In this document: positions 2,881 to 54,628 of the stretch, piece by piece
Layout of the letters: each line of letters opens with the position of its first letter
Position numbering within the stretch: position 1 is the stretch's first letter
From: Flavobacterium sp. MFBS3-15
Lineage (GTDB): Bacteria > Bacteroidota > Bacteroidia > Flavobacteriales > Flavobacteriaceae
DNA length: 64,000 nucleotides
Reading direction: 5' to 3'
NCBI RefSeq assembly: GCF_026107645.2
Contig: NZ_JAPCHV010000001.1
Span: 62,001-126,000, forward strand
Made by a program: the position numbers and the translations under genes
Notes under the pieces: generated by a model
Database searches by the model: none
Seen by the model: the letters and a program-made list of their open reading frames with translations, nothing else
What the model was told of the DNA's origin: nothing

Positions 2881-3783
2881 ATGGTCGACAGCAAACAGGC
2901 ATACCACGATTATCTGCTAAAGGAAAAGAATTATTCCCTGCTCACCCTTCGTGCCTATCTGGATGATGTTTCGGCATTTGAATCCTTTATTAAGGATGGC
3001 GACGCCGGCGCGACGCTGGAAGAGGTAAATTATAGCCAGGTGCGCAGTTGGATCGTGCAGCTTGTGAATGTAGGTTTGGCTAATAAATCCATCAACCGGA
3101 AAATATCTTCGCTGAAATCGTTCTATAAGTTTCTTCTTAAATCCAGGCAGATAGAAATCAATCCCCTGTTGAAGCATAAATCCCTGAAGACCGAAAAGAA
3201 GCTGCAAATTCCTTTTTCGGAAAAAGAACTGGTAGATGTGGTGGCAGATAATGAATACCCTGACGATTTTGAAGGCGTTCGGAACAGGCTAATCATCGAA
3301 CTGTTTTATACAACAGGAATGCGCCGTGCGGAACTCATAGGCCTCAAGGTAAATAGCTATGATTCTGGCAATGGTACGCTCAAAGTGCTGGGTAAGCGTA
3401 ATAAGGAGCGCATACTGCCGGTATTGGATTGTACGGCAAAACTCATCGGGCAGTACCTTTTGAAACGGCGCGAATTGGAAACGATTAGTGATCCTGATGT
3501 GTTAATTTTAAATATCAGGGGAAATAAAATCAGTGAATCGTTTGTCTATCGGTTAATAAATTGTTACTTTAGTGTTGTCTCTGAGAAGGTAAAAAAGAGC
3601 CCGCACGTGCTCCGGCATACTTTTGCAACACACCTTCTGAACAACGGGGCAGATTTAAATTCAGTAAAGGAACTATTAGGGCACGCGAGTTTATCATCCA
3701 CACAAATCTATACCCACAGCAGTCTTGCCGAGTTGAAGAAGGTGTATGGGGATTCGCATCCTCGCGGTCGTGGTGGCTCCTAA
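2881..3783 (+). CDS. xerC: Tyrosine recombinase XerC/XerD family
   Basis: A 300-residue site-specific recombinase. The N-terminal SAM-like core-binding domain spans about residues 5-90 and the catalytic domain about 110-290. All catalytic residues are present: Arg148 (TTGMRRAEL), Lys172 (LGKRNKERILP), His242 and Arg245 (HVLRHTFATHLL), His268 (LLGHASLSSTQIYTH) and the nucleophile Tyr277. Xer recombinases act at dif to resolve chromosome dimers. This one sits in the usual flavobacterial housekeeping place between rpsU and hpf, with no integron, phage or transposon gene near, which supports the housekeeping role. Whether it is the XerC or XerD partner cannot be settled from the sequence alone. 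Confidence 0.92.
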   Translation: MVDSKQAYHDYLLKEKNYSLLTLRAYLDDVSAFESFIKDGDAGATLEEVNYSQVRSWIVQLVNVGLANKSINRKISSLKSFYKFLLKSRQIEINPLLKHKSLKTEKKLQIPFSEKELVDVVADNEYPDDFEGVRNRLIIELFYTTGMRRAELIGLKVNSYDSGNGTLKVLGKRNKERILPVLDCTAKLIGQYLLKRRELETISDPDVLILNIRGNKISESFVYRLINCYFSVVSEKVKKSPHVLRHTFATHLLNNGADLNSVKELLGHASLSSTQIYTHSSLAELKKVYGDSHPRGRGGS

Positions 3784-46114: not shown

Positions 46115-46660
46115 CTAGAAATAATACCCAACAGATAGCTGGAATACATTGTTCTTGATGTCAATCTCGTCGTTATCCGATACGTTGCTGAGACCCACAT
46201 TGTAACGTGCCTGAGCAAACAGCCCAGCAATGATTTTTAGTTCTGCGCCAACACCTGCAGAAAGGTCGAAGCTTTTGGTGTCGAAAGCTTCTTCAGCCTC
46301 ATCGACAAGGAAAGAGAACTGAGGTCCTGCCATAAGGCTTAGCTTTTCAGGCAGCACATAGAATTTTGCCATTACGGGTACAGCGATGTAGCTCAGGTCG
46401 ATATCCTGTGCAATGTCAAGCGCAGTGTCTTTGTATGTCGCTCCCTGTGACGAGAAAAGCCCTTCTGCCTGGATAGAGAATGTTGGCACCAGGTTAAGCT
46501 CTACAACAGCTCCCGCATGGAAGCTGGTAATTCCGTCGGTATCCACATCGCCCGAAAAATTAGCGAAGTTGGCCCCTGCCTTAATACCAAAGTCAAGGCC
46601 CTGTGCCTGCATGGCAAAACTGCCTGCCAGTGCTGTGAACAATAAAAGAATCTTTTTCAT
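46115..46660 (-). CDS. PorT-like outer-membrane beta-barrel protein (array member 1)
   Basis: A 181-residue protein with a signal peptide (MKKILLLFTALAGSFAMQAQ, cleavage after Ala19) and a compact eight-strand barrel of the PF13568-type family: FGIKAGANFANFSGD at the start, PTFSIQAEGLFSSQGA, LSLMAGPQFSFLVD and a C-terminal VFQLSVGYYF strand that would close the barrel and be recognised by BAM. The last residue is aromatic. It is the downstream gene of a minus-strand pair with 46681. Confidence 0.9.
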   Translation of the reverse strand: MKKILLLFTALAGSFAMQAQGLDFGIKAGANFANFSGDVDTDGITSFHAGAVVELNLVPTFSIQAEGLFSSQGATYKDTALDIAQDIDLSYIAVPVMAKFYVLPEKLSLMAGPQFSFLVDEAEEAFDTKSFDLSAGVGAELKIIAGLFAQARYNVGLSNVSDNDEIDIKNNVFQLSVGYYF

Positions 46661-46680
46661 GTGTTCTATAAATTAGTGGG

Positions 46681-47205
46681 TTAAAAATAAAAACCTAACG
46701 AAAGCTGTATTACCGAATTCTTTACATCGGCATCTTCAAATACCTGTTTTTGTCCCCATACATAACGGCCCTGGATGAAAAGCCCGCCCGTAATTTCATA
46801 TTCAAGGCCGGCCGCGATGCCAAAGTCAAAATTCTCGGCTTCGGCCGGAACAACGTCTTTAGTTTCGCCTGCGACCAATGAGAACTGTGGCCCGGCGTGT
46901 ATGCTTAACGAACCATCGATGTCAAATTCGGCCATGACCGGCAGTGTTACATAATTGATCTTATACTCATCGCCATCTACCTTGGCCCCCTGTACGGAGT
47001 ATAATAGTTCCGGTTGGATCGTTATACGGTCAAGGATGTAAAACTCTGTAAGTAATCCTACATGAAAGCTGGTTATGCCATCAAAGCTGTCGGCATCGTT
47101 GCCGGTAAGGTTGGCAAAGTTTACCCCTCCTTTAATTCCATACGTTTGTGCCTGTGACAAAGAGCCCATGAGCAGCATTGCTGCTGCTAAAAAAAAATGT
47201 TTCAT
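46681..47205 (-). CDS. PorT-like outer-membrane beta-barrel protein (array member 2)
   Basis: A 174-residue paralogue with signal peptide MKHFFLAAAMLLMGSLSQAQ and the motifs YGIKGGVNFANLTGND, ITIQPELLYSVQGAKVD, LSIHAGPQFSLVAGE and VIQLSLGFYF. I start it at 47205; an earlier in-frame ATG adds ten residues before the signal peptide and is unlikely. Located 20 bases upstream of array member 1 on the same strand, so likely co-transcribed. Confidence 0.9.
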   Translation of the reverse strand: MKHFFLAAAMLLMGSLSQAQTYGIKGGVNFANLTGNDADSFDGITSFHVGLLTEFYILDRITIQPELLYSVQGAKVDGDEYKINYVTLPVMAEFDIDGSLSIHAGPQFSLVAGETKDVVPAEAENFDFGIAAGLEYEITGGLFIQGRYVWGQKQVFEDADVKNSVIQLSLGFYF

Positions 47206-47427
47206 ATAAAAATTTGTAATACTGGTTAAAGGCAAATGTAAGGCAAAAACTTAAAGCAGTAAATGTACTTTAACCCCATTTTGGCATTTTTAAAGATCTT
47301 TTACAAAGCCTATTGCAAATCTGGTAATGTAAGATTTTGATTGTCAGTAATAATTTGGATTACAAATATTTTAAAAAATGGCATACGTTTTGTAAGTACA
47401 AATGTTAATAACTTAAAAAATAAACAC

Positions 47428-48033
47428 ATGAAAAAATTTATGTTTTCGATGATTGCCCTTGCATCATTCATGGCTGTCCAGGCCCAGGAAGAAGAGGGAG
47501 GTAAAGGATTTGCAAAAGGTGATGTTTTTGCTTCCGGCTCGCTGGGATATAGCTCCCAAAAAACTGGTGAAGAGAAGTATAATCAGTTTAACGTTATCCC
47601 AAGGGTAGGCTATTTTGTGAGTGATAATGTAGCTATTGGTGCCCAGTTAGGATACGGCAACTCCAAGGCAACTTATTATACAGGTATGGAATGGGATGAA
47701 CGTACTACAAATTCTTTTTCAGCCGGGGCCTTCGCAAGATATTATGCTACACCGAGTAATACCTTCTCTTTCTTTGGACAGCTGCAAGCCAACTACAGCA
47801 CCTCAAAAACTGAATATGAGGGAGGTGGCGAGGATAAAAGGAATGGGTTTGATGTAGGCCTTGCGCCCGGTATCAGCTATTTTGTATCTGATCACATTGC
47901 CCTGGAAACCACTTTTGGCGTATTAAGTTATGCTACTTCCAAGCCCGATGCAGATGGCACTGAATCGACAAATACTTTTAATCTGAACCTTAACCTTAGC
48001 AATGTAGTGTTTGGCATCGTTTACAAATTTTAA
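47428..48033 (+). CDS. Outer-membrane beta-barrel protein of a different subfamily
   Basis: A 201-residue protein. I start it at 47428, where MKKFMFSMIALASFMAVQAQ forms a signal peptide; an upstream ATG adds an AT-rich stretch with no family match. The mature part has alternating amphipathic strands (DVFASGSLGYSSQKTGEEKY, FNVIPRVGYFVSDNVAIGAQ, NTFSFFGQLQANYSTSKTEY) ending in NVVFGIVYKF. It resembles OmpW/OmpX-like small barrels and not the PorT-like family of its neighbours. It opens the plus-strand half of the array. Confidence 0.85.
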   Translation: MKKFMFSMIALASFMAVQAQEEEGGKGFAKGDVFASGSLGYSSQKTGEEKYNQFNVIPRVGYFVSDNVAIGAQLGYGNSKATYYTGMEWDERTTNSFSAGAFARYYATPSNTFSFFGQLQANYSTSKTEYEGGGEDKRNGFDVGLAPGISYFVSDHIALETTFGVLSYATSKPDADGTESTNTFNLNLNLSNVVFGIVYKF

Positions 48034-48058
48034 AAATTTGTTAATATCATTCTTAATA

Positions 48059-48083
48059 AAATACCCGCTTATAGGTATTTTTC
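48059..48083 (+). terminator. Terminator after the barrel gene at 47428
   Basis: AAATACC and GGTATTT with an eight-base loop followed by T-rich sequence; it separates this gene from the next. Confidence 0.65.
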
Positions 48084-48099
48084 TTATTAATTAATTTTA

Positions 48100-48107
48100 T
48101 ACATTTG
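48100..48107 (+). promoter_or_regulatory. Promoter -7 element of array member 3
   Basis: TACATTTG matches TAnnTTTG, 31 bases before the ATG at 48139. No TTG is at the -33 position. Confidence 0.6.
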
Positions 48108-48138
48108 CCCCAAGTAACAATAAAAATTTAAACACAAA

Positions 48139-48666
48139 ATGAAAAAAATCTTATTATCTGCAGTAGCCGTTATGGCTTTTGGTGTAGCTGCTCAAGCTCA
48201 ATCAGAGGAAATGAAATTCGGTGTTAAAGCGGGTGCTAACTTCTCTAACTTTACAGGAGATTTTGATGCTGACGGAGCAACAAGTTTCTATGTAGGTGGT
48301 TTGGTTGACCTTCCTGTATCCGGCAACTTCCACGTACAGCCCGAAGTTCTTTACTCTATGGAAGGTGCTGACAAAGCAAGCCTTTCTTATGTAAGGGTGC
48401 CAATCATGGCTAAATATTATGTTATGGAAGGCCTTAGCCTGCAGGCTGGTCCGGAAGTAGCTTTCAAAGTTGCCGCTGAAGACGATGCAATGGATGAAAT
48501 GACTAAGTCTATCGACTTTGGTATCGGAGCTGGTGCTGCTTACGAGCTTCCAATGGGTCTTATGTTTGACGTAAGGTACAACCTTGGTATGTCAAACATC
48601 AGCGATGTTGACGGTGTAGACATGAAGAACACAGGTATCCAACTTGGTCTTGGATACCGTTTCTAA
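48139..48666 (+). CDS. PorT-like outer-membrane beta-barrel protein (array member 3)
   Basis: A 175-residue paralogue with signal peptide MKKILLSAVAVMAFGVAAQA, then MKFGVKAGANFSNFTGDFDA, FHVQPEVLYSMEGADKASLS, LSLQAGPEVAFKVAAEDD and GIQLGLGYRF. Codon use is T-ending and rich in GCT and CTT, like the ribosomal protein genes, which suggests high expression. It has its own promoter and terminator, so each of the plus-strand copies can be controlled separately. Confidence 0.92.
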   Translation: MKKILLSAVAVMAFGVAAQAQSEEMKFGVKAGANFSNFTGDFDADGATSFYVGGLVDLPVSGNFHVQPEVLYSMEGADKASLSYVRVPIMAKYYVMEGLSLQAGPEVAFKVAAEDDAMDEMTKSIDFGIGAGAAYELPMGLMFDVRYNLGMSNISDVDGVDMKNTGIQLGLGYRF

Positions 48667-48691
48667 GACCCTGATGTTAATAAATTCAGAA

Positions 48692-48718
48692 AACCTCCCC
48701 ATGGGAGGTTTTTTTTTA
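48692..48718 (+). terminator. Terminator of array member 3
   Basis: AACCTCCC and GGGAGGTT around CAT, followed by nine T. Located 26 bases after the stop codon. Confidence 0.92.
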
Positions 48719-48759
48719 AGAATATTTTGCTATTTTTATCGCACCTAAATCAATAACAC

Positions 48760-49296
48760 ATGAAAAAACTCTTACTTTCGGCTGTTGCCGTTATGGCTTT
48801 TGGATTTACCGCACAGGCACAAATGGATGAATTTCCGATATTCGGTATAAAAGGTGGTGTAAACCTTTCAAATTTTGGCGCTGATGCCGAAGACACCGAT
48901 ATGGCTACTTCATTTTATGCAGGTGTTTCATTGGATATCCCAATGAAAGGCATATTCCACCTTCAGGCGGAGGCCCTTTACTCTGTAGAGGGTGCGGATG
49001 AAGCATCAATTACTTATCTAAGGATGCCTGTTATGGGTAAATTTTATGTAGGTAACAATTTTAATGTTCAGGTTGGCCCAGTTTTGGGAGCTAAGCTTGA
49101 CACTGAAGACAAGTATCTCAATAAAGCTACAAAAGCTCTTGATTATGGAGCTGCCGCGGGACTTTCTTATGAATTCAATATGGGGCTTGTTGTTGATGCA
49201 AGGTACTATCTTGGACTGGCAGACATCAACAGGTCTGAGTCAACAGATAAGATTACCAATAACTCGATCCAATTGGGTCTTGGATTCCGTTTTTAA
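48760..49296 (+). CDS. PorT-like outer-membrane beta-barrel protein (array member 4)
   Basis: A 178-residue paralogue closely related to member 3: signal peptide MKKLLLSAVAVMAFGFTAQA, then FGIKGGVNLSNFGADAEDTD, FHLQAEALYSVEGADEASIT, FNVQVGPVLGAKLDTEDKYL and SIQLGLGFRF. The signal peptide and first strands are almost identical to member 3, which marks a recent tandem duplication. No promoter consensus is visible in the short gap; it could be read from an unrecognised promoter. Confidence 0.92.
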   Translation: MKKLLLSAVAVMAFGFTAQAQMDEFPIFGIKGGVNLSNFGADAEDTDMATSFYAGVSLDIPMKGIFHLQAEALYSVEGADEASITYLRMPVMGKFYVGNNFNVQVGPVLGAKLDTEDKYLNKATKALDYGAAAGLSYEFNMGLVVDARYYLGLADINRSESTDKITNNSIQLGLGFRF

Positions 49297-49317
49297 TCAT
49301 TTGTTTGATAAATATTT

Positions 49318-49344
49318 AAAGCCTCTTTTACAGAGGCTTTTTTT
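49318..49344 (+). terminator. Terminator of array member 4
   Basis: AAAGCCTCT and AGAGGCTTT with a five-base loop followed by a T-run, 21 bases after the stop codon. Confidence 0.9.
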
Positions 49345-49375
49345 AAGCCAATTAGTTAATCAATACAAATAAATC

Positions 49376-50020
49376 ATGAAAAAGAATTTGCTTACTGTGG
49401 CTGCCACTTTGCTGGCTGCTGCTTCTTTTGCGCAGGAAAAAATGGAAGATCCTGCTGCTAAAAACCCTGCATTTGGCATCAAAGCGGGCCTTAACATAGC
49501 TACGATAACAGGAGATGTTAACGATGCATCGCCAAGGCTGGGGGTACATTTTGGGGTAACTGCCGAATTTAAGCTGTCAGACAGGTTTTCAATTCAACCC
49601 GAATTACTTTATTCGATGCAGGGTGTGAAGGAAACCGTTTCGGAAGAATATTTAGGCAGCATCATAACCGGAGAAGGAACTACTAAAATGGATTATATCA
49701 ACCTGCCGGTCATGGCAAAAATCTACCTTAGCGATGGCTTTAGTCTTGAAGTAGGTCCGCAGATAGGTGTTTTGGTAAGCGGAAAAATATCGTATGACCT
49801 CAACTTTGAAGGTGAGAATGTAAGCGGCACTGAAGATGCAAGCAGCGAGCTTAAATCGGTTGATTTTGCCTTTAATGCAGGCTTGGGATACAAGCTTCCG
49901 TCGGGACTCTTTTTCCAGGGTCGTTACAGTTTGGGTCTAACAAACACTTATGATGGCGACTTTGATACTGAAGGAAAGAATGGGGTGCTGCAATTCTCTA
50001 TAGGATATCAGTTTAAATAA
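49376..50020 (+). CDS. PorT-like outer-membrane beta-barrel protein (array member 5)
   Basis: A 214-residue member with signal peptide MKKNLLTVAATLLAAASFAQ, then FGIKAGLNIATITGDVNDAS, FSIQPELLYSMQGVKETVSE, FSLEVGPQIGVLVSGKISYD and VLQFSIGYQFK. It is longer than the others by two loop extensions (around residues 80-100 and 135-160). The C-terminal aromatic strand ends in Phe-Lys, one residue past the usual terminal aromatic. Terminator at 50032. Confidence 0.9.
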   Translation: MKKNLLTVAATLLAAASFAQEKMEDPAAKNPAFGIKAGLNIATITGDVNDASPRLGVHFGVTAEFKLSDRFSIQPELLYSMQGVKETVSEEYLGSIITGEGTTKMDYINLPVMAKIYLSDGFSLEVGPQIGVLVSGKISYDLNFEGENVSGTEDASSELKSVDFAFNAGLGYKLPSGLFFQGRYSLGLTNTYDGDFDTEGKNGVLQFSIGYQFK

Positions 50021-51047: not shown

Positions 51048-51302
51048 ATGCCGGGAAGGAAAACACCGGGCCCGCAGGTTAAGGATAAAGACCAGTATGA
51101 GGCCCTCAGGGAGAAAGGCTACAGCAAAGAGAAATCGGCGCGCATAGCCAATAGTAAAGGCGCTGAAAAGCGCGGAGGCAAGGCGGGCAAATATGAAGAC
51201 CGCACAAAGGCGGATCTTTATAAGGAAGCGCAAAAAGTAGGGATTGAAGGCCGTTCCAAAATGACCAAGGCGGAGCTGGCCCATGCGCTCCGCACCAACT
51301 AG
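51048..51302 (+). CDS. Small basic protein with Rho-N/SAP-like C-terminal domain
   Basis: An 84-residue highly charged protein. Residues 1-50 are rich in lysine, glycine and arginine (MPGRKTPGPQVKDKDQYEAL, KSARIANSKGAEKRGG) and residues 50-84 form a Rho termination factor N-terminal/SAP-like helical unit (DRTKADLYKEAQKVGIEGRS, KMTKAELAHALRTN), a fold known to bind nucleic acid. Similar small ChaB-like or DUF7218-type proteins occur in many bacteria, often stress-induced. The 3' end overlaps the stop codon region of the convergent gene by four bases. Confidence 0.75.
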   Translation: MPGRKTPGPQVKDKDQYEALREKGYSKEKSARIANSKGAEKRGGKAGKYEDRTKADLYKEAQKVGIEGRSKMTKAELAHALRTN

Positions 51303-51931
51303 CCTAACAATCCGTATCCATTCTTCAGGCCTATGAGCGCATCCCTGAAAAAGGATTTTGACGGGCGTACCATAAAATGCTGCTCTACCTGTTCCTTACG
51401 GAAGAAAATGATGCCTAAATGGTAGGCATCTACGGTTACGGTGGCTTTAGGGTGGTTACGTAAGGCATGCCATATGGTCTCCATATGCGCATTTGCGTGA
51501 ATGTTGGGCAGGATGCACACCGTATCGTTATGCGAGTTGGAAACGATATTTTCAAAGGAAGCCATTGCGGCTTCTTTTTTGTTGTCTGCTATTACGGCCA
51601 GGTCGGTGCCGCCGGGGATGGGTGCCAGTGGCGAAAAGAACCATAGCTTGATCTTGTTTTCCTCGCCGGCATAGCGCAGCATATCGATTATCTTGTCGGC
51701 ATCTTCGCCAATAACGAAAGACTTTGCGGGGCGTATATAGTTGACAATACGGTACAGGAGTTCAGCAGCAGGGTAGGGCACCTGCATGTTTTGCGCACGA
51801 TGTTCTTTTTTGGAAAGCCGTGGGCCTTTGGCATAAAAAGCCTTGTTTATAAACCGGAACATGAACGGCGAGTGGATGCCGTGGTCGTCCACCGACTGCC
51901 AAAGGAACGATGTATAGGATAGTTTGCTCAT
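51299..51931 (-). CDS. Methyltransferase-like protein, degenerate SAM site
   Basis: A 210-residue protein whose N-terminal part (MSKLSYTSFLWQSVDDHGIH ... FINKAFYAKGPRLSKK) and C-terminal part (NHPKATVTVDAYHLGIIFFR, KEQVEQHF) match a flavobacterial family of class I SAM-dependent methyltransferase-like proteins. The middle is shorter than in the family and the glycine-rich SAM-binding motif expected near residue 70 (GEDADKIIDMLRYA here) is not visible. The ATG at 51931 is chosen because earlier starts run into the AT-rich gene upstream and fall before the conserved start. A copy of its first 40 codons lies at 52499. Confidence 0.7.
   Translation of the reverse strand: MSKLSYTSFLWQSVDDHGIHSPFMFRFINKAFYAKGPRLSKKEHRAQNMQVPYPAAELLYRIVNYIRPAKSFVIGEDADKIIDMLRYAGEENKIKLWFFSPLAPIPGGTDLAVIADNKKEAAMASFENIVSNSHNDTVCILPNIHANAHMETIWHALRNHPKATVTVDAYHLGIIFFRKEQVEQHFMVRPSKSFFRDALIGLKNGYGLLG
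51855..51907. repeat. 53-base direct repeat, copy 1
   Basis: These 53 bases, in the 5' region of the methyltransferase-like gene, are identical to 52560-52612, offset by 705 bases in the same orientation. The outside flanks of both copies diverge. Confidence 0.95.
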
Positions 51932-51959
51932 CCTGTCTTTTAATAAAAAAATAAAGGTT

Positions 51960-52502
51960 TTAAAAACAACATGTGTCTGATATTTTATAATGGCCATTCT
52001 CACTTACTATAGAAACATCAAAATATTCCCTTTTAAATTCTGATTGATTTTCATTTAGAGGGATTTCTGCAATAAAGGATACAACATAAGTATCTTTAGC
52101 ACCTTTTTTTAAACTAATTTTAAGACTTTCTAAAGATTGGCTACATATAAAATTATTACTAGTTATATAATCGAAATCTTTATTGAAATTTTCTATTTGC
52201 TCATTAAAAAAAGTCTTTGTGCAATTTACCTTTTTGATTGAATCCAATTCTTGAAAAAATACAGGTAACTTTGATTTATCTTTACGATTTGGAGAGTTCA
52301 GATAAAAATTTATATATGATTTATAAAAATCGGCAACCCATATCCCTCCCGCATCAACACTATCAATTTTTTTACTATTTAAAGAAGTATCAATGTTGGA
52401 CTCATATATTGATTTTTCTTCGATAGCAGGTAAAGTCGTTTCTTTATCTTTAATACACGAAACAACAAGAGCTAAGACAATCATATAATAATATTTTTTC
52501 AT
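51960..52502 (-). CDS. AT-rich lipoprotein of unknown family
   Basis: A 180-residue protein with signal peptide and lipobox MKKYYYMIVLALVVSC (Cys16 as anchor), then a charged mature part (IKDKETTLPAIEEKSIYESN ... SIVSENGHYKISDTCCF) with a terminal double cysteine. GC content is about 18-30 % per 60-base line, versus about 50 % in the neighbouring genes. It lies between two copies of a 53-base repeat and overlaps the truncated upstream copy by ATGA. Composition and flanks point to a recent insertion; I do not recognise the family. Confidence 0.7.
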   Translation of the reverse strand: MKKYYYMIVLALVVSCIKDKETTLPAIEEKSIYESNIDTSLNSKKIDSVDAGGIWVADFYKSYINFYLNSPNRKDKSKLPVFFQELDSIKKVNCTKTFFNEQIENFNKDFDYITSNNFICSQSLESLKISLKKGAKDTYVVSFIAEIPLNENQSEFKREYFDVSIVSENGHYKISDTCCF

Positions 52503-52636
52503 AATTTATGAAGTTTTAGAAAGCCTTGCATTTTTGAGATAAAAGCCTTGCTCACGAAGCGGAACATGAACGGCGAGTGGATGCCGTGGTCGTCCACCGA
52601 CTGCCAAAGGAATTGTGTGTAGGATAATGTACTCAT
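52499..52636 (-). pseudogene. Truncated duplicate of the methyltransferase-like gene's 5' end
   Basis: A 45-codon frame: MSTLSYTQFLWQSVDDHGIH then SPFMFRFVSKAFISK, which matches the start of the gene at 51931, and then a short unrelated tail (MQGFLKLHKL). The stop overlaps the next gene's ATG. It is too short for a function and reads as the remnant left when something was inserted. Confidence 0.7.
52560..52612. repeat. 53-base direct repeat, copy 2
   Basis: Identical to 51855-51907 over 53 bases, offset by 705 bases in the same orientation. Confidence 0.95.
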
Positions 52637-52667
52637 GTTATTAGTCTAATTTTCGAACGTATCTCTT

Positions 52668-52726
52668 GTCAGTTCGAGCGTAGTCGAGAACATAACGTTA
52701 GCATCTCGACTGCGTTTCGATGTGAC
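52668..52726. repeat. Palindromic intergenic repeat (REP-like)
   Basis: Arms at 52668-52689 and 52704-52726 are imperfect inverted repeats around a 14-base loop, with the core GTTCGAGCGTAGTCGAGA, a type of element very common between genes in flavobacteria. It lies in the gap beside the ABC-F gene. A related core appears at 61583-61634. Confidence 0.6.
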
Positions 52727-52759
52727 AGACTGACGCATTCCCCTTTGGGGATTAGGGGG

Positions 52760-54628
52760 TTATTCCATCTTCATCTCCAGCTCAAACCACCGTTCCGTTT
52801 TTGCGTCGAGGTCTTTCAATACTTTTTCAAGGTCGGACGCTTTTTGTGCAATGTCCCTATCTGCAATTGTGCCATCCGAAAATTCCTTCTCTATAGATTC
52901 CTTCTCACGTTCAAGGTCTTTTATGTCCTTCTGCAGTTTTTGATATTCTTTCTGCTCGTTAAATGTCAGGCCGGCCTTTACATTATTTTGCTTCCAGTTC
53001 TTTTTGGCGTTATCACCCACAGGCTTCAGGTCTTCCTTCGCGGGTTCTGCGCTGTCCTCGTAGGTACGGAAGTCGCTGTAGTTGCCAGGGAAGTCCTCAA
53101 TGGCGCCCTCGCCCCGGAAAACGAACAGGTGGTCTACGATTTTGTCCATGAAGTACCGGTCGTGCGAAACGACAAGCAGGCATCCGGGATAGTCGAGCAG
53201 GAAGCTTTCCAGTACATTCAGTGTTACAATGTCAAGGTCGTTCGTAGGTTCATCCAGGATAAGGAAGTTGGGATTCTGTATCAGTACGGTACACAGGTAC
53301 AGGCGCTTCAGTTCCCCGCCGCTCAGCTTCTCCACAAAATCATATTGCTTTTTGCGGTCAAACAGGAAACGTTCCAGCAGCTGTGCCGCCGATATGATCC
53401 TTCCTTTTGCCAGCGGTATGTATTCACCAAATTCTTTTATAATGTCAATGACCTTCTGCTCCGGCTTCGGGTTGATGCCGCTTTGGGTGTAGTAGCCGAG
53501 TTTAATAGTGTCGCCAACGACTACCTTTCCGTTATCCGGAGGCATGGTTTGGGTTATGATGTTCAGGAAGGTCGACTTCCCGGTACCGTTCTTCCCGATG
53601 ATGCCGATGCGTTCGCCCTTCTTAAAATTATAGCTGAAATTCTCAAGTATGGTTTTGTCCTTGAATTTCTTCGATACATTGTGCAGTTCCACAATTTTGC
53701 TGCCCATTCGCTCCATGTTGATCTCCAGTTCTACCTGGTGTTCCTTGCGGCGGCTGTGGGCTTTTTCCTGTATCACATAAAAGTCGTCCTGGCGTGATTT
53801 CGACTTGGTCGTACGAGCCTTAGGCTGGCGGCGCATCCAGTCGAGTTCCTTTACATACAGGTTTTTTGCCTTGTCGATGCTGGCATTCTCGGCGGCAATG
53901 CGTTCCTCTTTTTTGGTAAGGTAGTACGAGTAATTGCCTTTGTATTGGTATAATTTTCCATTCTCCAGTTCAATGATCTCGTTGCACACGCGCTCTAAAA
54001 AGAAGCGGTCGTGCGTTACCATGAACAGTGTCATGTTCTCTTTGGCAAAATAGTTTTCCAGCCATTCGATCATCTCCAGGTCGAGGTGGTTGGTAGGCTC
54101 ATCAAGAATAAGCAGGTCAGGTTTGCTGGTAAGTATAATAGCCAGTGCCACACGCTTTTTCTGCCCGCCGCTCAGGTTCTTTATCTTCAGCTTGAGGTCG
54201 TCCAACTTTAGTTTCGAGAGTATCTGCTTGTACTGGGTTTCAAAATCCCAGGCATTGTGCAGTTCCATTTTTTCGAAAGCCTTTTGGTACGCTTCTTCAT
54301 CTTCGGGGTTTTCGAGGGCTTTTTCGTATTGCGCGATAACCTTCAGTACCTCATTGTCCGAATCAAAAATGCTTTCCTCGATGGTGAGTTCCGGGTCAAG
54401 CTTCGGTTCCTGCGACAGGAAAGCCATCTTGGTTTCCTTTCTCATGACTACCTGCCCGGTATCCGGCTGATCCTCGCCGGTGATGATTTTTAAAATGCTG
54501 GTCTTGCCGGTACCGTTCTTTGCTACAAAAGCAATTTTCTGGTCTTTGTTGATGCCGAAGGAAATGTTCTCGAAAAGCGTGCGCTCCCCGAAGGACTTGG
54601 ATATGTTTTCTACTGAAAGGTAATTCAC
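52760..54628 (-). CDS. ABC-F family ATPase (Uup-like)
   Basis: A 622-residue protein with two ABC cassettes and no membrane domain. Cassette 1 has Walker A AKNGTGKTS and signature LSGGQKKR; cassette 2 has Walker A GKNGTGKSTF and signature LSGGELKRL, each with DEPTN. Between them is the linker typical of ribosome-associated ABC-F proteins, and the last about 80 residues form a coiled coil (NVKAGLTFNEQKEYQKLQKD ...) as in Uup, which binds DNA/ribosome. These proteins act on stalled or primed ribosomes in translation. Single gene with a promoter -7 element (TATTTTTG, minus strand, 54645-54652). Confidence 0.93.
   Translation of the reverse strand: MNYLSVENISKSFGERTLFENISFGINKDQKIAFVAKNGTGKTSILKIITGEDQPDTGQVVMRKETKMAFLSQEPKLDPELTIEESIFDSDNEVLKVIAQYEKALENPEDEEAYQKAFEKMELHNAWDFETQYKQILSKLKLDDLKLKIKNLSGGQKKRVALAIILTSKPDLLILDEPTNHLDLEMIEWLENYFAKENMTLFMVTHDRFFLERVCNEIIELENGKLYQYKGNYSYYLTKKEERIAAENASIDKAKNLYVKELDWMRRQPKARTTKSKSRQDDFYVIQEKAHSRRKEHQVELEINMERMGSKIVELHNVSKKFKDKTILENFSYNFKKGERIGIIGKNGTGKSTFLNIITQTMPPDNGKVVVGDTIKLGYYTQSGINPKPEQKVIDIIKEFGEYIPLAKGRIISAAQLLERFLFDRKKQYDFVEKLSGGELKRLYLCTVLIQNPNFLILDEPTNDLDIVTLNVLESFLLDYPGCLLVVSHDRYFMDKIVDHLFVFRGEGAIEDFPGNYSDFRTYEDSAEPAKEDLKPVGDNAKKNWKQNNVKAGLTFNEQKEYQKLQKDIKDLEREKESIEKEFSDGTIADRDIAQKASDLEKVLKDLDAKTERWFELEMKME

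Follow-up and report, generated by a model that had tools for sequence, protein, structure and literature searches.

A probable orphan immunity lipoprotein gene inserted at the start of a conserved methyltransferase-like gene in Flavobacterium

In Flavobacterium sp. MFBS3-15, a stretch of 64,000 nucleotides (nt) of contig NZ_JAPCHV010000001.1 (positions 62,001 to 126,000, forward strand; the whole stretch is hereafter called the window) carries a small AT-rich gene for a lipoprotein, which is bracketed by two copies of a 5' end that belongs to a conserved methyltransferase-like gene. It is well supported that the lipoprotein segment is an insertion that left behind a duplication of the gene start. 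The best explanation of the whole, which we consider on balance probable, is that a foreign, AT-rich cargo with an orphan immunity role was inserted into the start of the methyltransferase-like gene, duplicating about 124 nt of it, and that this happened by single-crossover integration. The components of the locus, most of which are read on the minus strand, are as follows, given in window positions (aa, amino acids; ORF, open reading frame; GC, guanine plus cytosine content).

52760 to 54628, minus strand: ABC-F ATPase gene, the conserved upstream neighbour, with the same gene order in relatives
52499 to 52636, minus strand: remnant ORF of 45 codons with a frameshifted tail, its stop overlapping the lipoprotein start (ATGA, 52499 to 52502)
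52514 to 52636, minus strand: upstream repeat copy, in which the 5' end of the resident methyltransferase-like gene survives as a remnant; its alignment with the downstream copy has a single 1-nt gap
52560 to 52612, minus strand: identical core of 53 nt, upstream copy
51932 to 52513, minus strand: insert of 582 nt, 25.6% GC, with no recombinase-size ORF beyond the lipoprotein gene
51960 to 52502, minus strand: gene for a lipoprotein of 180 aa with the lipobox VVSC (by eye), a probable DUF3828/Tai3-like orphan immunity protein
51855 to 51907, minus strand: identical core of 53 nt, downstream copy
51808 to 51931, minus strand: downstream repeat copy, which forms the 5' end of the complete gene
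51299 to 51931, minus strand: complete methyltransferase-like gene, 210 aa, with no Pfam methyltransferase model matched, although longer relatives match one
51048 to 51302, plus strand: DUF7218 gene with a weak Rho_N match, the conserved downstream neighbour

A preliminary description made from the letters alone had reported an AT-rich lipoprotein gene bounded by identical 53-base direct repeats, and these are confirmed at 51855 to 51907 and 52560 to 52612, as is the order of complete gene (51299 to 51931), lipoprotein gene, and remnant (52499 to 52636) with its ATGA overlap. The identity over 53 nt and the divergence of the flanks are both borne out, but the full duplication is longer than had been described: without gaps it covers 96 nt at 88% identity (51836 to 51931 and 52541 to 52636), and blastn extends it to 124/123 nt at 83% with one 1-nt gap (51808 to 51931 and 52514 to 52636), owing to which the tail of the remnant is out of frame relative to the complete gene. 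When the 124 alignment columns (103 matches) were shuffled, a run of at least 53 identities was reached in 6 of 200,000 shuffles, beyond what randomly placed differences would give. The break in base composition is equally marked, with a GC of 0.256 in the insert (51932 to 52513) and 0.260 in the lipoprotein coding sequence, against 0.488 in the methyltransferase-like coding sequence and 0.455 in the window, and with a GC at third codon positions of 0.17 in the lipoprotein gene versus 0.59 in the methyltransferase-like gene; the drop to 18–30% noted earlier is about right, given that 100-nt windows wholly within the insert range from 0.20 to 0.29. Comparison of the 394-kb contig with itself yields three direct-repeat pairs with gaps of 250–4000 nt and six pairs with any gap below 6 kb, and only the pair flanking the lipoprotein gene encloses a low-GC insert. 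Of the other two of the three, one lies inside the ABC-F gene, judging from coordinates, and the second (C1:244343-245249) was rejected as a similar case, as it consists of two tandem paralogues.

The relatives of the strain preserve the site without the insert. Searching 398 genomes of the genus with the methyltransferase-like protein (E <= 1e-40) gave 16 matches including the strain itself, and 8 of the 15 non-self loci were fetched for synteny. The empty site that had been proposed as a check is present in all eight, in each of which the ABC-F gene is followed by a single methyltransferase-like gene with no lipoprotein match; the DUF7218 gene comes next in seven, and the contig of the eighth ends there. 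In a further relative, the ABC-F and methyltransferase-like genes are likewise adjacent (L006 of genome G085). The nearest relative, G214, shares 84% identity in the methyltransferase-like protein and 95% in ABC-F. The lipoprotein, for its part, is sporadic: 17 of the 398 genus genomes match at E <= 0.01, the strong matches being confined to the strain itself, G239 (54%), and G305 (45%), and in a family-level draw of 397 genomes it was found at E <= 1e-6 in the strain itself only. Neither strong match outside the strain has the same flanks, as both G239 and G305 carry the gene elsewhere. No match was obtained in IMG/VR, plasmids, phages, or GTDB 220 genome contigs, in scans from which very near records may have been omitted, and nothing was returned from NCBIfam, PADLOC, or PHROGs. 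It is the empty sites in 8/8 relatives, the sporadic cargo, and the strong GC break that together make the case for an insertion.

With respect to the nature of the cargo, a profile was built from five family members, namely the proteins of the window, G239, G305, G089, and G016. Among solved chains it matches 3KZT at E 7.7e-4, which is weak and is the sole match below 0.4. According to an excerpt of the source, 3KZT is BT_3511, a DUF3828 structure, and DUF3828 genes occur in operons with NlpC/P60 peptidases (PMC3924330); excerpts of two other reports identify Tai3, the immunity protein of the type VI secretion system (T6SS) amidase effector Tae3, as a DUF3828 protein (PMC13082787), and 4HZ9 as Tae3 complexed with Tai3 (PMC11796386). 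In G305, the 45% homologue immediately follows an open piece of 79 aa (L087:7954-8190), which has a weak Amidase_5 match at E 8e-4, just under the cut-off, and a match to 4HZ9 at E 6e-4; an NlpC/P60 ORF and another lipoprotein ORF lie upstream of this piece. When this amidase piece is used as a query, 5 of 299 genus genomes match, G305 itself included, and in all five loci a lipoprotein-like ORF with the FY start of the family follows the Tae3-like end or is fused to it (G305, with the 45% homologue; G102, behind an Rhs-type protein; G225; G261; and G272). The Pfam DUF3828 model finds the lipoproteins of G225 (2e-10) and G261 (1e-7) over its cut-off and that of G272 (7e-5) below it, and does not match that of G102, a more distant lipoprotein, which is matched by a three-member profile (window, G239, G305) at E 3.3e-6 at Z = 1000. 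In a profile-profile comparison, the three and the four proteins aligned with a probability of 94.6. The Tae3-like amidase end has no match in the strain's own genome and none in the window. Given the DUF3828 profile match, the homologues behind Tae3-like ends, and the lack of an amidase match in its own genome, the window gene probably encodes an orphan immunity protein of the Tae3/Tai3 type. In G261 (L110 235-3180), the Tae3-like amidase end and a DUF3828 lipoprotein are found in one open frame, which lies between two copies of a transposase-like ORF (by eye).

Several results tell against an immunity role of this sort. As a single sequence, the lipoprotein has no Pfam DUF3828 match at E <= 1, and a PF12883 search of its own genome at E <= 10 does not list its locus; the toxin-linked lipoproteins of G225, G272, and G261 have no significant match to the three-member cargo profile; and there is no conservation of the QDX motif, which is linked to inhibition of Tae3, with NNF/NEF found near that place (by eye). 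As the Pfam model misses the lipoprotein and the QDX motif is not conserved, membership of Tai3 is not claimed. The protein might instead be some other envelope lipoprotein with an NTF2-like fold, a reading with which the missing QDX motif is compatible, as is a single-sequence structure prediction so poor (predicted local distance difference test score of 36.5) that it yields no fold evidence. The position of the homologues directly behind Tae3-like amidase ends argues against it, as does the sporadic, AT-rich distribution, which is expected of transferred cargo, and we regard it as rather unlikely. An identity as DUF386, given by a weak Pfam match (E 0.014), was dropped because it lies below the cut-off. 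Two T6SS markers gave no match in the strain's own genome, namely PF05591, whose control was detected only in E. coli, and PF17642, whose control was detected nowhere, so that absence of a T6SS is not established by either.

Members of this cargo family have been inserted at two unrelated sites, each with a gene-end duplication of about 100 nt, the first being the gene start in the window and the second the 3' end of an OmpA-like gene in G089. There, L112 7303-9369 consists of two AT-rich lipoprotein genes within direct repeats of that 3' end, one encoding a distant homologue of 153 aa and the other lying beside it, in an insert of 1869 nt between repeats of 99 nt that are 93% alike. The repeat comprises the last 92 nt of the OmpA-like gene and 7 nt more; its left copy belongs to the complete OmpA-like gene, and its right copy adjoins a GNAT-like gene. 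On the 189-kb contig this pair is the strongest of six direct-repeat pairs, some of which are within the same insert. OmpA was matched in 78 of 101 genomes, G089 included, and at the 11 best non-self loci, which were examined, the OmpA and GNAT neighbours are both present (directly adjacent in eight, with a second OmpA-like gene between them in three), while neither G089 lipoprotein was matched at this site in any of the 11. The seven differences between the repeat copies are spread as chance allows, the longest run being reached in 14,183 of 20,000 shuffles. The homologue in G016 is also found between repeats, of 132 nt, within a repeat-rich array; it was not counted as a clean third case, as 17% of its contig is repeat-bounded. 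The rough background of sequence in direct-repeat-bounded intervals, taken from one contig per genome with the studied loci included, is 0.7% for C1, 2.6% for G089:C6, and 17% for G016:C55.

The surroundings of these two loci have features of their own. Between the genes of the G089 locus, short repeated elements that look hairpin-like by eye (L112 7552-7663, 8349-8458, and 9167-9243) are reminiscent of cassette boundaries, and beside the insert a 451-aa ORF, ankyrin-like by eye, is flanked by AT-rich repeats of 162 nt that are 73% alike (L112 9813-11661). In the G016 array (L113 9247-12773), small AT-rich ORFs are split by repeats of 130–517 nt (about 65–90% alike), and one of these ORFs is the distant lipoprotein homologue.

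Which of the two gene starts in the window is the resident one can be approached by comparison with G214. Of the 13 informative sites in the first 97 nt, G214 carries the base of the upstream remnant at 10 and that of the downstream copy at 3 (sign test p = 0.09). Removal of one site that is an artefact of the 1-nt gap leaves 10:2 over the first 92 nt (p = 0.039), with 6:1 before the core and 4:1 after it. Before the core as well as after it, then, the remnant beside ABC-F is the copy that resembles a resident start. This result is suggestive, and the start of the surviving complete gene may have arrived together with the lipoprotein. The preliminary description had proposed that an incoming fragment brought its own copy of the 5' end; the insertion it entailed stands, but the origin of the copy in incoming DNA is only suggested, at the 10:2 just given. 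Its further proposal, that translation of the insert starts from the beginning of the old gene, would agree with the ATGA overlap. The identity of the cargo and the parallel case in G089 had no part in that description.

A single crossover with a small circle is the likeliest mechanism by which this arrangement would have arisen. In a Campbell-type event, integration would have involved a circle on which the immunity gene was joined to a short part of the target gene. The exchange would probably have fallen shortly beyond nt 86 of the methyltransferase-like gene, and the 53-nt core would have been made identical by conversion between the copies or by mismatch repair at the exchange. A truncated, frameshifted copy would thereby stay behind ABC-F and the complete gene would survive downstream; the same step would yield the duplication in G089 too. 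In E. coli, as an excerpt of the source describes, circles missing part of the homology left duplications of 109-950 bp after single crossing-over (PMC3240628). The remnant, the lipoprotein gene, and the complete gene all run in one direction behind the upstream region of the old gene, from whose promoter they would be co-expressed, and the ATGA overlap of remnant stop and lipoprotein start may permit coupled translation. The lipoprotein, placed in the envelope, would then block the Tae3-type peptidoglycan amidase of a rival, as Tai3 blocks Tae3.

This account has to be weighed against several observations that do not favor it. The sites after the core, at 4:1 for the remnant, speak against a crossover within the core, so that a further step, for instance conversion, is required to account for the identical core. 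The test of allele origin is small, whether counted as 10:3 or, without the gap site, as 10:2; no donor was found; and in G089 neither repeat copy is clearly foreign. In addition, within the 5.5 kb examined no long repeat flanks the homologue of G239 or that of G305, and since that of G016 lies within a repeat-rich stretch, the pattern is clear in only two of five family members.

The alternatives differ mainly in where the second copy would have come from. Insertion might itself have duplicated the target, through staggered or replicative joining or through a non-autonomous element moved by an integrase in trans, in which case both copies would be resident and later diverged, with gene conversion keeping the core alike. 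A pattern of this kind is known as insertion with long target duplication and often involves restriction-modification genes, according to excerpts of the literature (PMC1643837, PMC3031569), and the G089 repeat would suit it, with differences spread as by chance and no foreign-looking copy. In the window, however, divergence is patchy (the 6 of 200,000 shuffles above), the non-coding remnant is nearer to the sister than the working copy is, and the insert has no recombinase-size ORF, while the target sites of the window and G089 have no detectable common core, local scores falling within the range of shuffled sequences; a duplication of this kind is thus a possibility that we hold with considerable reserve. 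An integrase-dependent element at a gene end, resembling a cis-mobilizable element (CIME), finds no support, as the insert has no integrase-size ORF and the two target sites are no more alike than shuffled sequences, which speaks against a common att core; an integrase might nonetheless have acted in trans.

In homology-facilitated illegitimate recombination, a donor whose lipoprotein gene lay immediately before its methyltransferase-like gene could have supplied both the lipoprotein gene and the donor start, with homologous exchange within the gene start at one end of the incoming piece and illegitimate joining at the other. The downstream copy is indeed less like G214 than the remnant is, at 6:1 before and 4:1 after the core, and homology-assisted illegitimate joining is known in competent bacteria from excerpts of two reports (PMC3240628, PMC2884548). 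Its usual product, however, is an insertion coupled to a deletion, with no duplication, as the former describes, whereas here there is a duplication, and in the genomes searched no strong non-self lipoprotein match adjoins this gene, those of G239 and G305 lying elsewhere; we consider this route unlikely. The gene start would also be present twice if the methyltransferase-like gene had long ago been duplicated in tandem and the lipoprotein gene had afterwards overwritten the first copy, but this is highly improbable: two copies at the site were seen in 0/8 relatives examined, what is left of the first copy is about 124 nt ending just before the lipoprotein start, and a second family member has the same architecture at an unrelated gene.

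As for the neighboring genes, the target gene merits its name more than the activity it implies. The 210-aa protein matches no Pfam methyltransferase model and none of five near relatives does so over the cut-off, while Methyltransf_24 is matched by two relatives of greater length within the genus (283 and 259 aa; L021:922-1773 and L026:949-1728); thus, the name methyltransferase-like is fair, whereas enzymatic activity is doubtful. By eye, the glycine-rich S-adenosylmethionine motif is absent from the short lineage. In a collection scan with this protein, no relative was confirmed in GTDB 220 genome contigs, from which very near records may have been omitted. For the ABC-F gene, the top NCBIfam models are EttA, Uup, and ABC-F, and only the general ABC-F model NF000355 exceeds its cut-off among those listed. 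Between the ABC-F and methyltransferase-like genes, window 52667-52727, a palindromic repeat by eye, is inverted in the sister G214 (L063 4495-4554), with 85% identity over 61 nt. Farther along, window 46115-50020 holds five related outer-membrane barrel-like ORFs that by eye are of the FGIKAGANFSNF type; the plus strand carries three of them and the minus strand two, and a sixth barrel-like ORF of another kind sits between them.

To our knowledge, the movement of lone immunity genes from toxin arrays into toxin-free chromosomes is little understood. The window has left a scar that can be read, consisting of a gene-end duplication and an empty site in relatives, and if more orphan immunity genes bear such scars, this route of gaining protection can be counted and tested from genomes alone. 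Overall, the insertion is borne out, a mechanism for it is proposed, and the recurrent pattern is testable. That the genus repeatedly captures orphan immunity genes at conserved gene ends, without a recombinase of their own and with duplication of about 100 nt, is put forward only tentatively. Were it true, the target gene would survive each capture and the immunity gene might gain the transcription of its neighbor. Judged by titles and the openings of abstracts, literature searches brought up no report of orphan immunity genes with a gene-end duplication at their borders, which is no proof that none has been published.

Several known systems bear a likeness to the locus. With Tai3 the window protein shares a probable envelope location, a DUF3828-type profile match (3KZT), and homologues behind Tae3-like amidase ends, and it differs in being lipidated, according to its lipobox (by eye), and in having no Tae3-like match in its own genome, no Pfam call, and no conserved QDX. 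Insertion with long target duplication was reportedly described in H. pylori by Nobusato et al. in 2000. Shared with that pattern are an insert that is absent from relatives, with a single repeat copy at the empty site (window 8/8, G089 11/11), long direct repeats (124/123 nt at 83%; 99 nt at 93% in G089), and the lack of a recombinase-size ORF in the window insert. In contrast, the window cargo is a probable immunity lipoprotein with no restriction-modification gene, an association that is frequent and not strict; the repeats here are a gene start or a gene end, with the target gene surviving whole; and the window copies differ as two alleles would. The single-crossover plasmid integrants of E. 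coli likewise have a short duplication of part of a gene flanking the inserted DNA, but they came, as far as the excerpt goes, from laboratory conjugation with selected plasmids, whereas the window has no visible vector (PMC3240628). The displacement arrays of orphan immunity genes in Vibrio T6SS clusters, in the excerpted source, resemble the present case in that genes are kept after horizontal transfer and illegitimate joining is discussed, and differ in that the window gene is not beside a secretion cluster among the neighbors seen and has an unrelated conserved gene as its site (PMC5361080). The recombinase-associated acquired interbacterial defence (rAID) clusters likewise hold orphan immunity genes that are separate from their effectors. 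From them the window locus departs in being a single gene between its ABC-F and DUF7218 neighbors, with no array, in the gene-start duplication that flanks it, and in that no recombinase adjoins it, the nearest recombinase-like ORF (by eye; 2881-3783) being about 48 kb off. Capture at gene ends, if true, would thus stand as a simple route of acquired defence beside the T6SS arrays and the rAID clusters.
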